Translations under genes and position numbers: made by a program
Source: Candidatus Margulisiibacteriota bacterium
Lineage (GTDB): Bacteria; Margulisbacteria; Termititenacia; Termititenacales; Termititenacaceae
Direction: 5' to 3'
Assembly: GCA_031267055.1 (NCBI GenBank)
Contig: JAIRZV010000069.1
Location: forward strand, 1-32,720
Length of the DNA stretch: 32,720 nucleotides
Shown: one piece after another, positions 15,621 to 27,564 of the stretch
Layout: every line of letters starts with the position of its first letter
How positions within the stretch are numbered: position 1 is the first letter of the stretch
The notes under the pieces: model-generated
Database searches by the model: none
What the model was told of the DNA's origin: nothing
What the model saw: the letters and a program-made list of their open reading frames with translations, nothing else

Positions 15621-16475
15621 ATGGCTGAAATATCCGCCGCGACAGTAAAAGAACTGCGCGAAAAAACTTTTGCCGGCATGATGGACTGCAAAAAAGCTTT
15701 GCAGGAAACTAACGGCGATTTTGAAGCGGCCGTCAAATGGCTGCGCGAAAAAGGCCTGTCTACCGCCGCCAAACGTTCGGACCGCGCGGCTTCGGAAGGC
15801 CTCATCGACGTGAAATTTAACGACGAGCGCAATTTGGCCGCTTTGTTTGAGCTGAATAGCGAGACGGATTTTGTGGCGCGCAACGCTAAGTTTCTCGCGC
15901 TGCTCAATCAACTGCTTGACCAAGTATTGACTAAGCAGCCCAAAGATATTGCCGAACTGGAAGGACAGCCTTTTCTGGGCGATGAGTCCAAGAAAATCAA
16001 TGAGCTGATCACCGACGCTATCGCGGTGATCGGAGAAAATATCGTGGCGCGGCGTTTTGCTCTGTACAGCGCGCCGGCCGGCAATGTATTGGAGAGTTAC
16101 GTGCACAACGGACGCATCGGTGTGCTGGTCGAGCTGACCGGCGCACAGGCGAACAGCGAGCTGGCCAAAAATATCGCCATGCACATCGCAGCGGCCAATC
16201 CTGCGCCGCAGTATTTGCAGCGCGCTGATGTGACCGCCGAGCATCTGGCTGGTGAGCGCGAGATTTACAAAACACAGATTTTGCAGGACGAGAAAAACGC
16301 CAAAAAACCGGCCAATATTATTGAGAAAATAATCGACGGCAAAGTTAATAAATTTTATCAGGATGTTTGTCTGCTGGAGCAGAGTTATATCCGTGACCCG
16401 GACAAAACAGTAAAAGATATTTTGCCAGAAGGCGTGTCGATAGTGCGCTTTGCCCGTTTTGAGCTGGGCGCTTAG
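15621..16475 (+). CDS. tsf: Elongation factor Ts
   Basis: VKELREKTFAGMMDCKKALQETNGDFEAAVKWLREKGLSTAAKRSDR; ELNSETDFVARN; MHIAAANP. Confidence 0.98.
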   Translation: MAEISAATVKELREKTFAGMMDCKKALQETNGDFEAAVKWLREKGLSTAAKRSDRAASEGLIDVKFNDERNLAALFELNSETDFVARNAKFLALLNQLLDQVLTKQPKDIAELEGQPFLGDESKKINELITDAIAVIGENIVARRFALYSAPAGNVLESYVHNGRIGVLVELTGAQANSELAKNIAMHIAAANPAPQYLQRADVTAEHLAGEREIYKTQILQDEKNAKKPANIIEKIIDGKVNKFYQDVCLLEQSYIRDPDKTVKDILPEGVSIVRFARFELGA

Positions 16476-16521
16476 TTTTTCACCCAAAAGCAGATCTGTA
16501 GCATTGTGTTATAATAAATCA

Positions 16522-16980
16522 GTGGGTATTTATAATTTGATTTTATCACCTTGGTTTTGGCTGGGTTTAGTCATAATTTTTTCCTTGATTGAATTAGCTT
16601 GTGCGCTTAATCTCATCACAATATGGTTTGCTGCTTCAGCCTTAATTATGGTTTTTGTTCCCGAAGCCACCAAAGGATTTTCCGTTCCTGTGCGTTTTAA
16701 TCTGCATATTATTATATTTTTACTAATCGCAGCCGCTTTGCTTATTTTTACACGCCCTCTAGTTATCAAAAAGCTAAAGATCGGAAAAACCAAAACGAAT
16801 GTTGATGATTTAATCAACCGCACCGCGCTTGTTACAAAAAGCATCAGCAAATTCAGCCCAGGTGAGATAAAAGTAAACGGCCAAATCTGGACAGCAATAT
16901 CAGAGAACAACGACTTGGAACAAGGAACAGAATGTACGGTAGTAGAAATTGTTGGCGTTAAAGCAATAGTAAAAAAATAA
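16522..16980 (+). CDS. NfeD family membrane protein (start refined to GTG; ORF begins 16450)
   Basis: TM helices followed by an OB-like domain LINRTALVTKSISKFSPGEIKVNGQIWTAISEN..GTECTVVEIVGVKAIVK; upstream TATAAT. Confidence 0.85.
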   Translation: MGIYNLILSPWFWLGLVIIFSLIELACALNLITIWFAASALIMVFVPEATKGFSVPVRFNLHIIIFLLIAAALLIFTRPLVIKKLKIGKTKTNVDDLINRTALVTKSISKFSPGEIKVNGQIWTAISENNDLEQGTECTVVEIVGVKAIVKK

Positions 16981-16999
16981 AACAATTAAGGAGTTCAAT

Positions 17000-17884
17000 A
17001 TGCTGAGTGTAATTTTGGTTTTGTTTGTTCTGGCTTTGACATTGTTAATTAGCGGGATAAAAATTGTGCCACAATCTTATAACTATGTAATAGAAAGACT
17101 GGGAGCTTTTCATACAACGTGGAAAGTTGGTTTTCATTTTAAGATTCCGTTTGTTGAGCGAGTCGCTAATGTAGTCTCTTTAAAAGAAGCGTTATTTGAT
17201 TACGAGCCACAGCCGGTGATCACCAAAGACAACGTAACCATACTTGTAGACACAGTGGTTTTTTACCAGATTTCTGATCCTAAACTTTATACCTATGGTG
17301 CCGAAAATCCCAGGCTGGCTATCGAGAAATTAACGCTGACTACTTTACGCAATGTGATCGGCGAGCTTGAACTGGACGAGACTCTGACCAGCCGCGACAC
17401 AATTAACGGCAAGCTGCGCAGTATTCTTGACGAAGCCACCGACGCTTGGGGTATAAAGGTGAATCGCGTCGAGGTCAAAAACATCGATCCGCCAGCCTCG
17501 GTAAAAGAAGCCATGGAAAAACAAATGCGCGCCGAGCGAGAAAAACGTGCTGCAATCCTTACGGCCGAAGGATTAAAAGAAGCAGCAATCCTTAAAGCCG
17601 AAGGAGAAAAACAGGCGCTTATTTTGCAAGCAGAAGCTCAAAAGAAATCCACTATATTAGCAGCTGAAGGCGAAGCGCAGTCTATTCTGGAAGTACAAAA
17701 AGCCACTGCGGATGGTCTGACTGCAATTAAAAAAGTTCTTGGCGACGAAGGGGTTATTAAATTAAAGAGTCTGGAAACCATGCAAAAAGTCGCGGACGGC
17801 AAGTCAACCAAAATAATAATACCATCGGACATGCAAAGCCTAGCGGGACTGATTACCAGTGTTACAGAAATAGCAAAACCATAA
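17000..17884 (+). CDS. SPFH/band 7/stomatin-like protein
   Basis: IKIVPQSYNYVIERLGAFHTTWKVGFHFKIPFVERVANVVSLKE...; coiled AEGEKQALILQAEAQKKSTILAAEGEAQS. Confidence 0.95.
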   Translation: MLSVILVLFVLALTLLISGIKIVPQSYNYVIERLGAFHTTWKVGFHFKIPFVERVANVVSLKEALFDYEPQPVITKDNVTILVDTVVFYQISDPKLYTYGAENPRLAIEKLTLTTLRNVIGELELDETLTSRDTINGKLRSILDEATDAWGIKVNRVEVKNIDPPASVKEAMEKQMRAEREKRAAILTAEGLKEAAILKAEGEKQALILQAEAQKKSTILAAEGEAQSILEVQKATADGLTAIKKVLGDEGVIKLKSLETMQKVADGKSTKIIIPSDMQSLAGLITSVTEIAKP

Positions 17885-18025
17885 GCTGGATACCAAAGTA
17901 TATTGAGCATAGCAATCTACTCTTTCCGGCAGAGTTATAGAGTAAAAAAAGACATACCCGAAAATACTCCTAAGTGTTAGCAGATTGCATTAAAAGGTTG
18001 TCTCAAGTAAAATATTTTTGTTTGT

Positions 18026-18100
18026 TCCCCGATCGTCTAATTGGTAGGACGACAGATTCTGGCTCTGTTAATCGAGGTTCGACTCCTTGTCGGGGAACCA
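18026..18100 (+). tRNA. tRNA-Gln (anticodon CTG), CCA encoded
   Basis: Acceptor tccccga/tcgggga; D-stem gtct/ggac; anticodon arm acaga-ttctggc-tctgt; T-arm cgagg-ttcgact-ccttg; ends acca. Confidence 0.93.
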
Positions 18101-18129
18101 ATCCACCCTGATGTCAAAGTCCGGTGAAT

Positions 18130-19207
18130 CTAGTATTTTACGGTTTTTGACACCAATAGGTGCATCTTTATTTTCGCTAGCGAGTCCTTAGTGTTTTCTT
18201 GGGGATAAATGCGGATTTCGTCAATTATATTGCCTAAGAGTCTTTCTTTAATTTGCAAAATCTAGTTTATCGTATATCTTGTAAAAGATTCTAAGAGTGT
18301 CTCTTATGTCTTCCTCTCTTGCTTTTTCTTGTTCTTTTTCAGCAACCAAGTTATCGAGGTTCGACAAATCTCTGTCGTAGCTGGCAATGTCTTTTTTATA
18401 GCCTTTGGCTAGGTCTTTTGAGCTTGGATGGTCAGGATTTAGTTATTTTCTACACCGATTTTTCTGTTCAATAACCCCCTTCTTTTATTAACTAGGTCTA
18501 TCTTCTCTTCGCTTTGTTGCTTTCTGGCTGAAATGAGGATTTTCTCAAAAGCCAAATTGTCCTTAAATAATTTTTTTAATTCATCTGCCAAAGCGTTTTC
18601 AATTAGAGTATCACTAATCCGTATCCTTTTCTTTGTTTCATCCTTAATATAGGTATGCACATAATAATGGCCGTTCCCTTTTCCTTCTTTGTGATAACTC
18701 ATTTCTTTCTCGGAATCTTCATAAAAGATTAAGTTGCTGAGAAGCCCTTTAGAAGCGGCAGATTTCTTTATATTTCTCAAAAAGTAAGATAACAATAAAG
18801 CATTCTTTTTCGTTGATTGTTAAGCATTCACCTATTATATCATAACCAAAAACTTCGTGTCCACCATTAAATTTGCCTTCTTGAATTCTACGATCCATAC
18901 CTGTTCTCGTTCATATTCTACAAAAGTTAAAATAATATTCATCATCATACGACCAGCGGCTGTCGCAGTAGAAAAATCTTGTGTTAGGGAAAAGCCGAAA
19001 GACAAGTCCTACATAGGGGAGCTAAAGCAAAGAGAAAAGGTAAGGTTTACCCTGCCAGAATGAATTTGCACCCGTCTCACCCTCATCACTGGGCATTTCA
19101 ATATTTATTGTGTAGATTGAGAAACCTTGTTTTGCAAGGCTCGCCAATGCTTTAACAAAGCAGTTTATCTCTCTGCACAAATGCTGAAAGGCGGTGAGAG
19201 AGGACAA
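18130..19207 (-). pseudogene. Degraded large serine recombinase
   Basis: Minus-strand fragments in different frames: FVKALASLAKQGFSIYTINIE; FSTATAAGRMMMNIILTFVEYEREQ; TGMDRRIQEGKFNGGHEVFGYDIIGEC; 118-aa ORF 18439-18795; coiled KDIASYDRDLSNLDNLVAEKEQE...; GNIIDEIRIYPQENTKDSLAKIKMHLLVSK. Confidence 0.85.
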
Positions 19208-19296
19208 TACTAATTTCTTAAATATATAAAAGTCAATTTATTGGCAAAAAACAGTACAGTTTGTACATGAATGTTGAGATAAACAAACAACCTTCT

Positions 19297-19319
19297 TGCC
19301 TGCCGTATATCGGCAGGCA
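19297..19319. repeat. Perfect 9-bp hairpin, REP-like
   Basis: tgcctgccg-tatat-cggcaggca upstream of the 19374 ORF. Confidence 0.7.
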
Positions 19320-19373
19320 GGACTTGTACTGTGTTGTGCTGTATAAAAATTTTATAGAAAGGTTGGTGTCTAT

Positions 19374-19796
19374 ATGACAACAGCAGTAAAAGTAAAAAAT
19401 AATAGTAAAAACAAGGAGAGAAGTATGAAGCGGTTTGTTGAAGAAATTTTTGCTAAAGATTTGAGATTATGTGAAAACCTTCAAGACGGATGGTTTGGCA
19501 ATAGTGGTGGTGGCGGTTATAGCTATGTCAAAAAGAATGGACTCAAAATGTACTATGTAAACGCGAGGAAGGATGGTAATAATAAATATAGAACTGAAAA
19601 CAGTTATGTGTACAATATGATTAAAAAACACCGTACGAAGAAAGTCAGGATAGTGTTGATGGATGACGTGCTGGCTTACTGGAAAGAACTCGCTGATTTG
19701 TATAAAAGCGGTAGGCTTAGAAAAACAACTTCCTTAGCGATAGAGATGTACAATAGGGAAAAAGAAACCGAACATTGTGGAGTGCCTCATATATGA
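19374..19796 (+). CDS. Hypothetical plasmid/island protein
   Basis: 140-aa ORF with plausible composition; ends in ATGA overlap with next ORF. Confidence 0.6.
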   Translation: MTTAVKVKNNSKNKERSMKRFVEEIFAKDLRLCENLQDGWFGNSGGGGYSYVKKNGLKMYYVNARKDGNNKYRTENSYVYNMIKKHRTKKVRIVLMDDVLAYWKELADLYKSGRLRKTTSLAIEMYNREKETEHCGVPHI

Positions 19797-20029
19797 TTCA
19801 GGATATGTTCGGAATGAAAGAGCAGAGTGTCAAAAATTATCGAGAGATTGCAATGTTTCTCCTAGACAAAAGCCTAGCTAGTAACCATCGAGAAGACTAT
19901 GGAAAATGGTTTGATAAGCTCGGACTGAAAGATTCTATTTGCTTGAAACAAGAGCTTTCTTGGATGAGAAGTTACTACAAGATGAAAGAAAAAGAAGCCA
20001 AAGAACGGGAAAGTAAGAGTAATTCATAA
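19793..20029 (+). CDS. Hypothetical protein with possible HTH (FGMKEQSVKNYREIAMFLL), translationally coupled to or frameshifted from upstream ORF
   Basis: ATGA stop/start overlap at 19793-19796; ORF listed from 19775. Confidence 0.5.
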   Translation: MIQDMFGMKEQSVKNYREIAMFLLDKSLASNHREDYGKWFDKLGLKDSICLKQELSWMRSYYKMKEKEAKERESKSNS

Positions 20030-20046
20030 CCATTGAATTATTCGGC

Positions 20047-20066
20047 AGGGTGTCGCAAGACACCCT
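20047..20066 (+). terminator. Hairpin after 20029 ORF
   Basis: agggtgtc-gcaa-gacaccct, 8-bp perfect stem followed by actcttta. Confidence 0.5.
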
Positions 20067-20278
20067 ACTCTTTATCTCAAGAAATGACAAACCCAGGACA
20101 CAAAGATACATCAAGGGCAGAGAGTAAATTCCCGATCATCCACACAAAATATATCTAAGAAATCCCTTAAAAACAGGCGTTCCAATGCAACAAACGGTAA
20201 ATAGTAGTATTAGAGAAAATCCGGATGGTTTCTTTTAATTTTTAGTCCAGTATTTCAAGGATAGATACTGGCGTAGTT

Positions 20279-22753
20279 TCAACTTGTTTGTATCTTGCTC
20301 GTGAAATTTTTTATGATACCACTAGGGGTTAATTCATGGTGTTCCAATAGTCCTTGGATTTTTTTCAAATCGTGATGATTATCAATGATTGCTAGAACAC
20401 AATCTTTCAGCGATTTTTTAAATTTTACAAGCATTTCTTCAGTCATTACTCTTGATTTACTGTTTGGTGATGCAGCACGCTCGCAACGATCACTGCGATG
20501 AATTATAAGTAAACAATAGTCATCTCTTTTATATTCCGATTGGAACCAATTTGCTGATCCATTTAATTGATTTATATGATCCTTAGATATTTTTTCTACA
20601 GTTTCCTTGCATTCGGTTTTGCATTCAATTACAAAATATTCATTGTCTATAGTCCATAATAAATCAGGCCCTCTTCCTTCCTGCTCTGGGCGAGAGCTAT
20701 CAAAACCGATATATTTAATTATATTTTTTGCTGTTTCTTCAAATCTTGTTGCTGATCCTTTAGAAAACGAAAACTGGTCTAATAATGCTTCTAGGTCCAT
20801 AATTACTTTGTTTTTATCTCCATCACGACAAGCATTTTGTATGAAATTCATACAGTTTTGTGCTTGTGAAACAAGACTAGTTAATTTGTCATAACTAGGT
20901 CTATGTTGTGGATTTAATACACGTCTATTATCTTCTTTGGCTTTCTGTAATATTTTCTGTGATTCAGATTGGTCTTTGTAATTTGTATATTCAGCCAAGA
21001 TTTGTCTTAGCCATCCGTTTGTATTTTTCCCATTTTCTTCATTAACTAGTCCTTGTATGATATTTATAGCTTTTTCGTAATTTCTGCTAAGTGCAGAGTC
21101 ATATGCTTCTCGCAAGCCAATAGCAATAATATCATTATGACAAAGGTTGTCGTATTTTAGTGATGCCAGTACGCTTTTACTTGCCTTAATCCAACTAACG
21201 TCTCTTTTTAAGCAAGAATTTATGGCTTCTTTCCATTCTTCGCGTTTACTTTTTAATTGTACTGCTAGTTTTTCAGATAATTGCATTTGGGCGTTTGTTC
21301 CAGGAGAAAGCTTTGAAAAACCATCTTTATTATAAAGGTGATTTACTAAAGATTGACCCATGAGGCAAACTACACAATAATCATCATTAGCTCTAATCCC
21401 ACGTCCCATACCTTGTTCTATTTTCTGTATTCTTTTGTTTAGTAAAAAACCACTATCTAATAGTACTTCTTCATTGTATTCATCGATTCTTCTTCTTACA
21501 TCAGGCAATCCGTCAATAACAAGAACACGACAAGCATCTTGCGGCAAATCTATTCCATCATATCTGTTTATTAAGACTACTAATCCTGTGTGAGGACTTT
21601 TTTTTAATTGTTCAATACCTTGCTGGATGTTAGATTTATTTAAAATAATATCTGCTACATCTCCCCAGAAAGATGCTCTGTGGAGAGATGGTACGATGAC
21701 AACAACATTATGGTGCAAGGATAGTTCTTTATAAAACGATTTTAAATCGTTATCATGTATTATTGGATTTAATGCCTTTGGGACAAGAATCATTCTATCG
21801 CCTATATCACCAGCAGTTTCTGGGGTTATACTTTTTGAAATATCTTCTTTTTTTAACCCAAAATGACTTGATAAAATACTATTATCTACCAATGTTGCTG
21901 TCATAAATATTTTTCGCGTTGCTTGTTCTATACTGGGGATCATATGTATTGGAATACAATGTGGAGATATTTCTATTTCATTTGCTGAAACCATACAATG
22001 ACAGAGGTTCAAATTGTCCTCTAATAGAGGTAAAGTAAACATTAGCTCATCGGTGTTTTTATGTTTTTTTAAAATTGCTGTTATTTGTGGGAGAGAACGC
22101 TGCCATACCCAAAAAGGGACAAGCATACTCTTTTGGCTATCATCATCGACATATATGTCATAATGCTTTGCTTCATTTTGATTTTTCAATGATTCAGAAA
22201 ACAAAGAGGCTAGTTCTTTGTATGCATCGATTGTATTGGGAATCCTTATCGTAAATTGTTGTTCTATATTATCAATACAGGCGTGTGCATCATCGATAAG
22301 CAAGCTTCCTATTTCAATTTTTTGACTACCAACACCAAAAACAGACAATCCATTAATTAGTTTATAAATATTTGTAACAAGGATAGCTTTACCACGTATG
22401 AAATCTGTAGATTTTTCGTTTTCTGTTACGTCTAATCCTAAACGATTGGCTTCTTCAATTACTTGTTCTACTAATTGCTTGTCTGGAGCTACATAGACAG
22501 CAGGCAACCTTCCTTCATTAAGACAACTTTTTAGTATTAGCAATCCTACAACTGTTTTTCCACTTCCGGTATTCATTTTAATTATGAGATTTTTTTCATT
22601 ACGTTTATCAAACCATTGGCTCCACACCTGTGCTTGGACATCTCTAGGGTACTGATACTTAGGATCGTTTTTCAATAACGCGTTAAATAATTCTCTTGGA
22701 GAAATGAGTGTTTCTGTTGTGTTTCCTGAATTCAGTGCTTCAAAATCTAACAT
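20279..22753 (-). CDS. SF2-type DEAD/DEAH helicase fused to C-terminal PD-(D/E)XK nuclease-like domain
   Basis: MNTGSGKT Walker A, LLIDDAHA (DDAH), MTATL, QGMGRGIRANDDYCVV motif VI; C-terminal GRGPDLLWTIDNEYFVIECKTE matches D-x(n)-ExK. Confidence 0.85.
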   Translation of the reverse strand: MLDFEALNSGNTTETLISPRELFNALLKNDPKYQYPRDVQAQVWSQWFDKRNEKNLIIKMNTGSGKTVVGLLILKSCLNEGRLPAVYVAPDKQLVEQVIEEANRLGLDVTENEKSTDFIRGKAILVTNIYKLINGLSVFGVGSQKIEIGSLLIDDAHACIDNIEQQFTIRIPNTIDAYKELASLFSESLKNQNEAKHYDIYVDDDSQKSMLVPFWVWQRSLPQITAILKKHKNTDELMFTLPLLEDNLNLCHCMVSANEIEISPHCIPIHMIPSIEQATRKIFMTATLVDNSILSSHFGLKKEDISKSITPETAGDIGDRMILVPKALNPIIHDNDLKSFYKELSLHHNVVVIVPSLHRASFWGDVADIILNKSNIQQGIEQLKKSPHTGLVVLINRYDGIDLPQDACRVLVIDGLPDVRRRIDEYNEEVLLDSGFLLNKRIQKIEQGMGRGIRANDDYCVVCLMGQSLVNHLYNKDGFSKLSPGTNAQMQLSEKLAVQLKSKREEWKEAINSCLKRDVSWIKASKSVLASLKYDNLCHNDIIAIGLREAYDSALSRNYEKAINIIQGLVNEENGKNTNGWLRQILAEYTNYKDQSESQKILQKAKEDNRRVLNPQHRPSYDKLTSLVSQAQNCMNFIQNACRDGDKNKVIMDLEALLDQFSFSKGSATRFEETAKNIIKYIGFDSSRPEQEGRGPDLLWTIDNEYFVIECKTECKETVEKISKDHINQLNGSANWFQSEYKRDDYCLLIIHRSDRCERAASPNSKSRVMTEEMLVKFKKSLKDCVLAIIDNHHDLKKIQGLLEHHELTPSGIIKNFTSKIQTS

Positions 22754-23023
22754 TGCCTATCCGGTATAGAAATATATTTAATTCATAGCCATTATCTTAG
22801 TAGTATAGCATAGCCAATATTACATATGGTAGCCTTGTAATGTGGATTTTCTTGTTAATACACCGTGTTTTGCTAACCCTATCAGACTAGATAATCTAGC
22901 CAGTAAACACACAAAATATGTCATGGTTTTTTATAGATATTTCTCTATAATTTCTCTTGTTTTGTATCAAGAGTGGTAATATCAGAATACTCAATTCTTC
23001 AAATATTTACCCCCATTTACATA

Positions 23024-24452
23024 TCAAGTGAAGCCCCGAAACACATCTAAGACCTTATCAAGCCTAGAATCTAATTCATATTCTAAATCAGGATTACTTT
23101 TAGATATTTCTACCTGACAAATAGGACTTACTGTCCAATTTGTATCAAGAATATATTTATTGTTCTATTATCTTTTTTATTCATCATTTCATTGTATAAA
23201 TCATAAGCAGCAGCCCTGCATACCACTATCTTTTCCATTAACTTGATAAGGGTAATTCTTTTAGAACAATTTAAGGATAGGGTAAAATCTAATTTGTCAG
23301 AATGATCTGCCTTTCTGACTATAATAGATTTTTCTCTATCCTGATCTGTCCAAAAACTACCACTCGTACCGTTCTTATCCAATTTTGTGGAGCAAAACCA
23401 AGCAATCTGGTGAGCTGATGCTGGCAAAGCGTCCTCTAGTCGTGAAAAGTCTGGGTCTGCGGCCAGTCTTTGTAAAGCAAAATTCAGGACAAGAGAATGA
23501 TCATAACCATTTTTTCTGGCAAAACTGTATGCTTCTCTGACAACTCTAAAGAAACCACTATCGTTTCTCCCGGCACAAGCATATCCTGTTTTCTTATGAC
23601 AGGTCTTTTTTGAGGGTTGGCTTTGGAGTAACTGTATAGATCACTTAACGTTAGTGTGTTATCAGATATGTTAATTATTGTATGCCCTTTATAAAACGGA
23701 TTGCGAACAAAATAACCAGCATAACTGGGGTCTCCATTTAATGGTTTAGTAAGATAATCTTTGGCAAGCCTGTAATTCCGCTCTGCTTTCTGGCCAACAG
23801 TAATAAAATTTTTTAACTGCCAGATAATATGACAGTGATTTGTCGCAGGATTAACTACGATCCATCTGGGTTTTAAGTTATCCGGTAATAAATCTATTTT
23901 CTTAACCGCTTCTTGATAATCATAATCGCAGTCCAGGGAGAGAACATATTTAGCTTTGCCGGTATTAAAATTTATATGCTTAAAATTACTGGCTTTATCG
24001 GGGCTGCAATATGTGTGGCGGTCAAACTCATTACAGACACGCAGTTTTTTTCTGTTTGTCAGCAATGGGTCTGGAATATTCATTGCTTCAGTATCAGCAT
24101 GAACAACAGCCGCAGCCCTAGTGATGTTTTTTAATGCGAGATATTCTTCTTTGGTAATGTTCCTATATCCCACAAAATCTGTATTACTTTTTTGATAATA
24201 TCTGAAAACCCTTTTTCCAGTATTATCATAACCGTACTCTCTCCAAAACTGCCGATCCTTTTTCTTTTCCGCATCTAGTTTGATAAAGAATCTTATATCC
24301 TGCCTCCGTTTATCCGTCAGAGCAGGTTTTTTATTTTTGTCTTCCGGGTAGTCTGTCCAGAAAGGCATAAGCCTACAGGGCTTACCATCTGAGTCAATGT
24401 CTGGATATTCAGCGGTTAAGTTAGAGAGAATGTTTACACTGCCTTTCTTCAA
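23024..24452 (-). pseudogene. ColE2-type/RepA-like plasmid replicase, disrupted by at least two frameshifts
   Basis: RWIVVNPATNHCHIIWQLK; LNGDPSYAGYFVRNPFYKGH; the -1 frame continues GYACAGRNDSGFFRVVREAYSFARKNGYDHSLVLNFALQRLAADPDFSRLEDALPASAHQIAWFC; a later frame continues NNKYILDTNWTVSPICQVEIS..DVFRGFT*. Confidence 0.8.
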
Positions 24453-24467
24453 AAATAGCTGTTTGTT

Positions 24468-24773
24468 TTATGTTTCACGAAGTTTCTGAATATAATCATT
24501 GTGTCTAGCTTTTATCGTGGATAGGTAAATTTCGGCTTCTTCTATGGTATTAAACTCCGCATAGAATTCTTCTCCATTCTTTTCAAAGGAAACCTGATAC
24601 ATGATCGAGCTTATTGTGGCCGCCTTCCGTCCGAATATGTTTTGAATATCTACAGCGATTCTATCTCCGAGTGCCTGGTTGTCAGTTATTGCAAACACAT
24701 ACTCCGAGTTACTCTCGATTATCATAGTATCTGTTACTCTGCTTAAAACCAGATTTTCGATGTTATCTCTCAT
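24468..24773 (-). CDS. Hypothetical island protein (101 aa)
   Basis: ORF overlapping next gene start by 4 nt (operon-like). Confidence 0.6.
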   Translation of the reverse strand: MRDNIENLVLSRVTDTMIIESNSEYVFAITDNQALGDRIAVDIQNIFGRKAATISSIMYQVSFEKNGEEFYAEFNTIEEAEIYLSTIKARHNDYIQKLRET

Positions 24774-25183
24774 TTCTTTCTCCTGCTTGTTTTTCTGTGC
24801 TGGGCATCTTCAAAAACGAAATCTCTCAATAAACCGATTACTTCAGTTATCAATATGTGCTTGGCTTCCCACATCTCAATTACCTTTTTATCTATAGCAT
24901 TCCAGATCATTGTGTCGATTTCTTTATAGAGAGCCAATAAATCCTTACTGGGCTTTTCCTCAATATCCATTGCTCTTTTCCGGTAAGAGGGCAATTCCTC
25001 TCTCTTGTCCTTCTTCAGCCTGACCAGCTCAACATCTGTTGCAATATACGCTAAAACTTCCTCAATTTCTTCTTCCGGTATATTATCTGCGGCTTCTCCG
25101 GCAGCACAGTAGATTTCAAATTTTGGTTCCGCATCTGCCAAATTCTTTTCCGCCGCTGCTCTGGCTTGTTTTCTAGTTGTCAT
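24770..25183 (-). CDS. Hypothetical island protein (137 aa)
   Basis: AAGGAG SD upstream of ATG; overlaps preceding ORF end. Confidence 0.65.
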   Translation of the reverse strand: MTTRKQARAAAEKNLADAEPKFEIYCAAGEAADNIPEEEIEEVLAYIATDVELVRLKKDKREELPSYRKRAMDIEEKPSKDLLALYKEIDTMIWNAIDKKVIEMWEAKHILITEVIGLLRDFVFEDAQHRKTSRRKK

Positions 25184-25511
25184 AATTTTTCACTCCTTTA
25201 TTAACAATCAGCACTTTATTATCTTTTTCCAGTAACCTTTCTATGAGATGTAAACAGGTCGACAAATTGTCTGGCGTAATATCGTGAGCAGACGGGAACA
25301 TTACCTCTTTTCCTTTGCAGACCTGCTGGTTTATTTTCTCCGGGTCAAATAAACCTTTTTGCCAATCAGTAACGGTACTTCTCCCAAATTTGATGGCCAT
25401 ATATTTAGCGTAGCAGTATAGGCAGTCGTTTGGGCAGCCGGACGCTTTGTTGGAACTTAAATTACGATTTATCTCTGCCCATTCTTTTGTGCCAGTTTTA
25501 GACTTGCTCAT
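25173..25511 (-). pseudogene. N-terminal half of a radical SAM protein (truncated)
   Basis: SGCPNDCLYCYAKYMA carries CxxxCxxC; ORF ends at KVLIVNKGVKNYDN*, well short of a full radical SAM domain. Confidence 0.65.
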
Positions 25512-25526
25512 AATTTTATTGCCGCC

Positions 25527-25664
25527 TTAAATTTTATTTTGTTTACGATTTAACCGCTTCAGGTTTGCCTGAGCTTCAGCAATTACATAACGACAAATAA
25601 TCTTTTCTACCTCTCTGGCTCTTTCTTCCGGGGTTACGTCCACAATCCTTAATAAAAAAAGCAT
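25527..25664 (-). CDS. Putative 45-aa small protein (MLFLLRIVDVTPEERAREVEKIICRYVIAEAQANLKRLNRKQNKI), first gene of the leftward operon
   Basis: Own translation; AGGAAGGA SD; directly downstream of palindromic operator. Confidence 0.5.
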   Translation of the reverse strand: MLFLLRIVDVTPEERAREVEKIICRYVIAEAQANLKRLNRKQNKI

Positions 25665-25682
25665 AATTCATCCTTCCTATGT

Positions 25683-25722
25683 ACTAGCATTTGCTTGTAT
25701 ATTTATACAAGCAAATGCTTGT
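25683..25722. promoter_or_regulatory. Divergent-promoter operator: 16-bp perfect inverted repeat made of two related palindromic sites
   Basis: agcatttgcttgtata (25686-25701) / tatacaagcaaatgct (25704-25719), 2-nt spacer; sub-sites actagcatttgcttgt (25683-25698) and acaagcaaatgcttgt (25707-25722). Confidence 0.85.
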
Positions 25723-25753
25723 AATATGTCAAGGGTTATGATATGCTTATCCT

Positions 25754-26299
25754 ATGGAAATGAAGCAGAAACAGGGGAAATATTTTGGAGAGTTATTAGC
25801 CCGACAAGGTGTTAATTTTACACAAATGAGTGAAAATCTCGGTGTTAGCTATCAACTTGTACAACAATATACTACTGGTCGCAGTACGCCTACTGAAGAA
25901 AAAATGGCAAAAATTGCTGAAATTCTAAAGTTACCGTTATGGTATATGTATGAGGATCATCAAAAGAAATTAGTTCAGATTATTAAATCGATGTTTGTAA
26001 CACGGGGATATTTTATTATAGAACAACCAAATGTAGATAATATTCAGGTGGATTTGTTATGTTTACACATAAACCCACAACTTATGGCTGCTATTGAGAT
26101 AAGTAAAAACCCAAAAAACCAAAACAAAATTTACCTTAATAAGATCAAACAAGTCTTAACTGAAAAATATAAGATAAATAATATTTGTGTGTTTGGCCTT
26201 ACCATTGGTAATGGTGAGGTAGAAATGGCCTGTGTTGGCAAAAAATCCAAAGAATTGCCAGATAAAGAGGAATTTTTACAAGTAATAAATAAGGTATAA
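25754..26299 (+). CDS. XRE-family regulator with extra C-terminal domain
   Basis: FGELLARQGVNFTQMSENLGVSYQLVQQYTTGRSTPTEEKMAKIAEIL HTH; C-terminal IQVDLLCLHINPQLMAAIEISKN is reminiscent of a nuclease-fold core. Confidence 0.85.
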   Translation: MEMKQKQGKYFGELLARQGVNFTQMSENLGVSYQLVQQYTTGRSTPTEEKMAKIAEILKLPLWYMYEDHQKKLVQIIKSMFVTRGYFIIEQPNVDNIQVDLLCLHINPQLMAAIEISKNPKNQNKIYLNKIKQVLTEKYKINNICVFGLTIGNGEVEMACVGKKSKELPDKEEFLQVINKV

Positions 26300-26306
26300 T
26301 TGAAGT

Positions 26307-27296
26307 ATGACAAAAGAACTTCAATTTTTAATGTACAGCACTCCGCAGGGAGACACAAAAATCAATGTGGCGGTAAAAGATGAGACGCTTTGGCTGACCC
26401 AGAAGGCTATGGCAGAACTTTTTGGCGTAGATAGAAGTGTTATTACAAAACATCTTCAGAATGTTTTTGAAACAAATGAATTAGAGGAAAATTCAGTATG
26501 TGCAAAAATTGCACATACTGCCACAGACGGAAAGAATTATCAGACACAGTTTTATAGCCTTGATGCGGTTATCTCTGTCGGTTATCGGGTAAATTCTGCT
26601 AAAGCAACACAGTTTAGAATTTGGGCGACCAAGACGCTTAAAGAATTTATCACTAAAGGCTATGTGCTTGATGATGAGCGATTGAAACAGGGACAAACGG
26701 TATTTGGTAAGGACTATTTTCGTGAACTTTTGGAGCGTATCCGTTCTATCCGGGCAAGTGAAAGGCGTATTTATCAGCAGATTACGGATATTTTTGCCGA
26801 GTGTAGCATTGATTATGACGCCAATTCTCCTTTGACCAGAGATTTTTATGCAATGGTGCAGAATAAATTTCATTTTGCGATTACGGGCAATACTGCTGCT
26901 GAAATTATTTATACCAAAGCGGATAGAAACAAAAAGAATATGGGTTTAATGACCTGGAAGAATTCACCGGAAGGCAGAGTTTTGAAGTCCGATGTGCTTG
27001 TTGCCAAAAATTATTTACAGGAAAAAGAAATTAAACGCTTGGAACGCACAATATCCGGTTATTTTGATTACCTTGAGGATTTGGTGGAGAATGAGACTAC
27101 TTTTACAATGCGGCAATTAGCGGACAGCGTAAATGATTTTCTGAATTTCAGGAAGTTCAAGATTTTGCAGGGCAAAGGTAAGATTTCTAAAACCCAGGCC
27201 GAGCAAAAAGCCATTGCGGAATATACGGAGTTTAATAAAACGCAGAGAATTATCTCTGATTTTGACAAGTATATTGCTGAATTGAAGGACAGGTAG
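26307..27296 (+). CDS. RhuM family protein
   Basis: LWLTQKAMAELFGVDRSVITKHLQNVFETNELEENSV...HTATDGKNYQTQFYSLDAVISVGYRVNSAKATQFRIWATKTLKEFITKGYVLDDERLKQG. Confidence 0.93.
   Translation: MTKELQFLMYSTPQGDTKINVAVKDETLWLTQKAMAELFGVDRSVITKHLQNVFETNELEENSVCAKIAHTATDGKNYQTQFYSLDAVISVGYRVNSAKATQFRIWATKTLKEFITKGYVLDDERLKQGQTVFGKDYFRELLERIRSIRASERRIYQQITDIFAECSIDYDANSPLTRDFYAMVQNKFHFAITGNTAAEIIYTKADRNKKNMGLMTWKNSPEGRVLKSDVLVAKNYLQEKEIKRLERTISGYFDYLEDLVENETTFTMRQLADSVNDFLNFRKFKILQGKGKISKTQAEQKAIAEYTEFNKTQRIISDFDKYIAELKDR
26494..26520. repeat. Perfect 12-bp inverted repeat inside RhuM coding sequence
   Basis: cagtatgtgcaa-aaa-ttgcacatactg. Confidence 0.95.
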
Positions 27297-27404
27297 TTAT
27301 CTCAAATCTCTGGCTACTAATTTTTTTCTCTTTTCGTAAGCCCACAGATTATAGTGTTTAAGACACAATCCTTTTCCGTGATGAGGTTCATTGCAATTTG
27401 GCAT
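27297..27404 (-). CDS. Small zinc-motif ORF, possibly HNH-associated remnant (MPNCNEPHHGKGLCLKHYNLWAYEKRKKLVARDLR)
   Basis: Own translation; C..C..H..GLCxxHY pattern; the frame is open further upstream. Confidence 0.35.
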   Translation of the reverse strand: MPNCNEPHHGKGLCLKHYNLWAYEKRKKLVARDLR

Positions 27405-27564
27405 AGTACATATTTTAATATAGGGGATAGGAAAGAGGTTTCTCCAGGGTACCAGCAACTCATAAATTGGCCGCGTATTACAACAGGGTGGAATGGGGAA
27501 CCACTTTCTATGATGGGCTCGGGTTGAAGTTTAAGGTTTTAGTAATCAATGATATTCTTGTGCC

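Follow-up and report, generated by a model that had tools for sequence, protein, structure and literature searches.

The DNA that we analysed, referred to here as the window, is a stretch of 32,720 nucleotides from a Candidatus Margulisiibacteriota bacterium (contig JAIRZV010000069.1). It carries a large minus-strand gene within an integrated island next to a tRNA-Gln gene (table 1). The gene had been described, in a reading of the sequence alone, as an uninterrupted frame for a single-gene fusion of a superfamily 2 (SF2) helicase and a PD-(D/E)XK nuclease, and reading the frame from its ATG start confirmed that it is intact. At the base composition of the window, an 824-codon open run would arise by chance with a probability of about 2e-21. 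The G+C content of the gene is 33%, versus 44% for the whole window. The SF2 motifs named in the sequence-only reading lie at the expected positions, with DDAH and TATL starting at residues 154 and 285, and Pfam recognized two SF2 domains (ResIII/DEAD, residues 36-169; Helicase_C_2, residues 376-477). In the nuclease region, where GPDLLW and IECK start at residues 695 and 709, Pfam gave a weak Hjc match below the cut-off (residues 694-738, E 0.037).

Table 1. Features of the window and of the protein encoded by the hna-family gene.
Feature	Position in window	Strand	Residues	Basis or remark
tRNA-Gln (CTG)	18026..18100	+		last 9 bases GGGGAACCA (18092-18100) form the left junction
Integrated island, 9.4 kb	18101..27503	.		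G+C content; absence from G002
Serine-recombinase-like fragments	18430-19240	-		broken by stops and frame changes; Pfam Resolvase E 0.045
hna-family gene	20279..22753	-	824 aa + stop	ATG start; family, fold and motif evidence
HEL1 SF2 domain			about 20-300	
HEL2 SF2 domain			about 320-480	
Helical linker			about 480-660	AlphaFold2 model
PD-(D/E)XK nuclease domain			about 665-824	
N-terminal loop and Q motif DPKYQYPRDVQ	22634..22666	-	30-40	
Walker A (motif I) MNTGSGKT	22553..22576	-	60-67	includes K66
Motif VI QGMGRGIR	21392..21415	-	447-454	XPD/DinG type
PD-(D/E)XK catalytic core	20618..20671	-	GPD 695-697, ECK 710-712	
Replicase-family gene	23484-24452	-		PF03090
HTH gene	25754-26299			precedes RhuM gene; HTH part resembles RmrA-model proteins
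RhuM-family gene, intact	26307..27296	+		PADLOC candidate PDC-S05, E 4e-152
Second GGGGAACCA copy, right junction of island	27495..27503	+		direct repeat and empty site

The island has a G+C content of 36%, against 47-48% in its flanks. A genome of the same genus (G002, locus L111) provides an empty site: there, the tRNA-Gln gene is joined directly to the sequence that lies right of position 27503 in the window. The neighbouring threonine synthase is 97% identical between the two genomes. The full-length hna gene thus resides in a mobile island, as had been proposed. The sequence-only reading had further placed it alone in a decayed element. This is largely correct, given the 9.4-kb insertion, the empty site in the relative and the recombinase-like remnants, but an intact RhuM-family gene and a replicase-family gene are also present. 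The RhuM-family gene is a putative second defence candidate of the island, and the PF03090 match of the replicase-family gene suggests an integrated plasmid as the origin of the island. No intact integrase was seen on the island. Intactness of hna had been taken as a sign of retention under selection; it is also compatible with recent acquisition. On the other side of the tRNA-Gln gene, two plus-strand genes at 16484-18024 separate it from tsf (16450-16980): one begins close to where tsf ends, and the other is an SPFH/Band_7 gene. In G002 tsf is followed directly by tRNA-Gln, which indicates a second indel beside the island.

Profile searches assigned the protein to a known family. The PADLOC model PDC-S28 matched it over its full length (E 2e-300, 997 bits). 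A phmmer search against the PDB returned one strong chain, the 845-residue Hna protein (10uj/9yhn/9ykj), aligned to residues 3-822 of the window protein at 31% identity (E 4.9e-121). Entries 10UJ and 9YKJ are the Hna monomer and dimer according to the data statement of the structural study (PMC13381803). A protein encoded on pSymA of Sinorhizobium meliloti 1021 (L003) matched the PDB chain with 1929 bits over 844 of 845 residues, and its T30, D31, P34, R36 and Q39 agree with the published numbering (PMC13381803). This S. meliloti Hna scored 1020 bits on the same PDC-S28 model. Since both proteins match PDC-S28, PDC-S28 and Hna are one family, and the candidate label can now be equated with Hna. 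The window gene is, by sequence, a member of the Hna family, an already described one-gene anti-phage defence protein whose biochemistry and structure were worked out in 2026 (PMC12445080, PMC13381803). The proposed single-gene helicase-nuclease architecture was right, and what looked like a new fusion is now placed within a family of known mechanism.

We modelled the protein with AlphaFold2 from an alignment of 33 homologues, with plasmid-record sequences left out (mean pLDDT 87.7, pTM 0.71). A Foldseek comparison with the PDB, one of the checks suggested alongside the sequence-only reading, placed the Hna monomer 9yhn first along the whole chain (E 1e-65, 837 columns, 32% identity, TM 0.69). 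Both Hna dimer chains came next, followed by DinG, CasDinG and XPD with E-values of roughly 1e-11 to 1e-9. The TM-score to Hna is only moderate, which a differing placement of domains in the model would explain. The long helical middle noted earlier appears in the model as helices at about residues 467-660. The C-terminal PD-(D/E)XK core was upheld both by the full-length alignment to Hna, in which the nuclease domain has been solved, and by the best PDB match of the model.

We then compared the residues that have been mutagenized in Hna. Hna P712, D713 and E727, together with K729, are required for normal nuclease activity, and R36 and Q39 take part in ATP handling (PMC13381803). In the alignment, these columns hold P696, D697, E710 and K712 of the window protein, and its R37 and Q40 form the Q-motif pair. 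All 72 homologues compared retain the nuclease D, E and K; 69 of them retain the P and 58 the Q-motif R. Among 11 homologues, Walker A residues G63, G65, K66 and T67 were invariant, as were Q40, D154-D155, E446-Q447-G448, R451 and R454. Because all published nuclease and Q-motif residues are present, the catalytic sites of the window gene are, as far as its sequence can show, all intact.

Within the phylum, the gene was found in only one of 74 genomes searched, that of the window, which is an incomplete bin (74% complete). Scanning genome contigs with the single sequence yielded no homologue, while scanning with an alignment yielded 80 loci. Homologues are present on many plasmids (238 records), and one lies among genes of an integrative-conjugative element. 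An all-against-all comparison of neighbours revealed no conserved partner gene in 82 homologous loci. Only serine recombinases (10 of the 82 loci, in different hosts: L002, L009, L018, L022, L023, L031, L085, L096, L100 and L101) and genes of a shared Legionella plasmid recurred, and none of the other island proteins was found beside hna elsewhere in the 82 loci (E 1e-4). The recombinases are perhaps linked to the mobility of hna. Several large neighbour clusters were discarded as partners, as they appeared to be antisense frames of hna itself. The lack of any cross-host neighbour except serine recombinases fits a stand-alone system. The search for homologues and neighbourhoods that had been proposed for this gene placed members of the Hna family in plasmid and mobile settings; of the candidate stand-alone defence system, the stand-alone character likely holds, and the implied novelty does not. 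One homologue, of the S. meliloti type, is encoded on Lactococcus lactis pMRC01 (L007, 4001-6532). This plasmid confers abortive infection, for which its hna gene is a candidate.

A departure from the studied protein was observed in its regulatory loop. In S. meliloti Hna, the nuclease is inhibited by an ATP-stabilized dimer formed through residues T30, D31 and P34 of a HEL1 loop. Mutating all three makes the enzyme hyperactive, and AlphaFold3 predicts that the phage SSB which activates Hna sits at this dimer interface (PMC13381803). The loop is a mechanistic trait of the type member and does not serve to define the family. The window protein has D, P and Q in these columns and so does not share the loop. 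A deep split separates two clades of homologues (support 100, in a quick tree with long branches). One clade, including S. meliloti Hna and members from E. coli, Salmonella, L. lactis pMRC01, P. aeruginosa, Spirosoma and Niallia, contains all nine of the 83 homologues with the pattern [TSA][DE]xGPxRxxQ, among them an E. coli plasmid homologue. The other, which contains the window protein and accounts for most of the sampled homologues, has this pattern in none of 68 members and an alternative form, [FYW]x(0-2)[PL]xDxQ, in 59; these proportions are biased and are not population estimates, since the window protein led the search that supplied 80 of the loci, and the loop position moves by about one residue between alignments. 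Hna's only structurally defined regulatory contact is thus confined to one clade of the sampled homologues.

The absence of the dimer-loop motif from the window clade means that control or trigger may differ there, and the published on/off switch of Hna may not apply to the remainder of the family. We tentatively entertain, at somewhat less than even odds, that the window clade is a functionally distinct Hna subtype, in which the same helicase-nuclease engine would be restrained and triggered through another surface or by another phage factor. This is a refinement of the Hna explanation, not an alternative to it. It draws on the sharp division of loop forms, with the S. meliloti form present in nine of nine members of its own type and absent from the window clade, most of which has the alternative form, on the depth of the split, and on the double role of the S. 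meliloti loop as inhibitory dimer contact and predicted SSB interface. A different set of residues could, however, build the same dimer in the same place, so that function could stay the same despite the altered loop, and both the quick, long-branched tree and the shifting loop alignment weaken the distinction.

Two other explanations would place the gene outside Hna-type defence. The QGMGRGIR motif had been taken to recall HamB, which suggested a one-gene Hachiman variant with a HamB-type helicase fused to a HamA-type nuclease. The logic of an SF2 helicase combined with a PD-(D/E)XK nuclease is indeed alike, and a HamB profile did match weakly. This match was restricted to residues 39-104 around Walker A (E 0.0044) and ranked below the PDC-S28/Hna, DinG, PbeA and SngC models, while HamB was absent among the 50 Foldseek matches listed for the model. 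Motif VI is of the XPD/DinG type, and the DDAH box and DinG/XPD fold neighbours of the window protein contrast with Ski2-like HamB, which has DEGH and WH*/NAH domains. HamA (DUF1837) had no match in the hna frame or the scanned island frames. With a trace HamB match, a fold that matches Hna first and a different type of helicase, we rejected the fused Hachiman and give it next to no credence. The other explanation is that the protein serves DNA repair in the host as a DinG/XPD-like helicase-nuclease and plays no part in defence. In its favour are the Helicase_C_2 match and DinG and XPD being the closest fold neighbours after Hna, and ExoDinG proteins are likewise 3'-5' ssDNA exonucleases (cited in PMC13381803). 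It is, however, disfavoured for a sporadic gene that sits on an island missing from a congeneric genome, has plasmid-borne homologues and encodes a protein far closer to Hna than to DinG. We consider it very unlikely, if a little less so than the Hachiman fusion.

We are therefore highly confident that the product of the gene is an anti-phage protein of the Hna family with, by homology, an Hna-type mechanism, and that the gene was brought by the mobile island integrated at tRNA-Gln. Hna is a one-gene abortive-infection system with 3'-5' ssDNA exonuclease activity, held off as an ATP-bound dimer and triggered by phage SSB (PMC13381803); abortive infection and the SSB trigger are also stated elsewhere (PMC12445080), and no unwinding was seen for its helicase core (PMC13381803). 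By analogy, the two RecA-like domains of the window protein would bind ATP and ssDNA and would restrain the C-terminal PD-(D/E)XK domain. A phage factor, probably SSB, would engage the protein and free the nuclease, which would then degrade DNA from 3' single-stranded ends. The infected cell would cease phage production, followed by death or dormancy. We infer defence activity, exonuclease polarity, inhibition by ATP and the SSB trigger from the studied Hna. Inhibition and trigger are the least secure of these steps for the window protein, its loop being different; as the dimer contact is not conserved, inhibition in this subfamily may involve a different surface. Against the Hna reading stands that the only biochemically studied member found is just 31% identical, belongs to a different deep clade and has a dimer loop that the window protein lacks. 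Given the incomplete host bin and the single occurrence among 74 genomes of the phylum, function and expression in this host are putative.

Among known systems, Hachiman HamAB is alike in outline, as an SF2 helicase there regulates a PD-(D/E)XK nuclease in abortive infection. It differs in having two genes, a Ski2-like HamB with a DEGH box and a DUF1837 HamA, and it senses DNA ends and damage (PMC12278908). The helicases DinG, ExoDinG, CasDinG and XPD share the fold of the helicase core and the form of motif VI with the window protein, and the typeIV_DinG profile matched it at E 2e-17. Hna itself is without the canonical iron-sulphur cluster of DinG and XPD (PMC13381803). The window protein shows no material difference from PDC-S28, the PADLOC candidate single-gene system that is a provisional label for the Hna family. 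To our knowledge, none of the DinG, ExoDinG, CasDinG and XPD helicases has a PD-(D/E)XK C-terminus. Compared with S. meliloti Hna (SMa2245; 10UJ/9YHN/9YKJ), the window protein is 21 residues shorter and lacks a short insert before Walker A as well as the T30/D31/P34 dimer loop; it is 31% identical to it and belongs to a separate deep clade. The two are otherwise alike in length, in their two SF2 domains with a DinG/XPD-like core, in the helical linker and C-terminal PD-(D/E)XK domain, in all mutagenized nuclease residues and the Q-motif R/Q, and in being encoded by a single gene in a mobile context.
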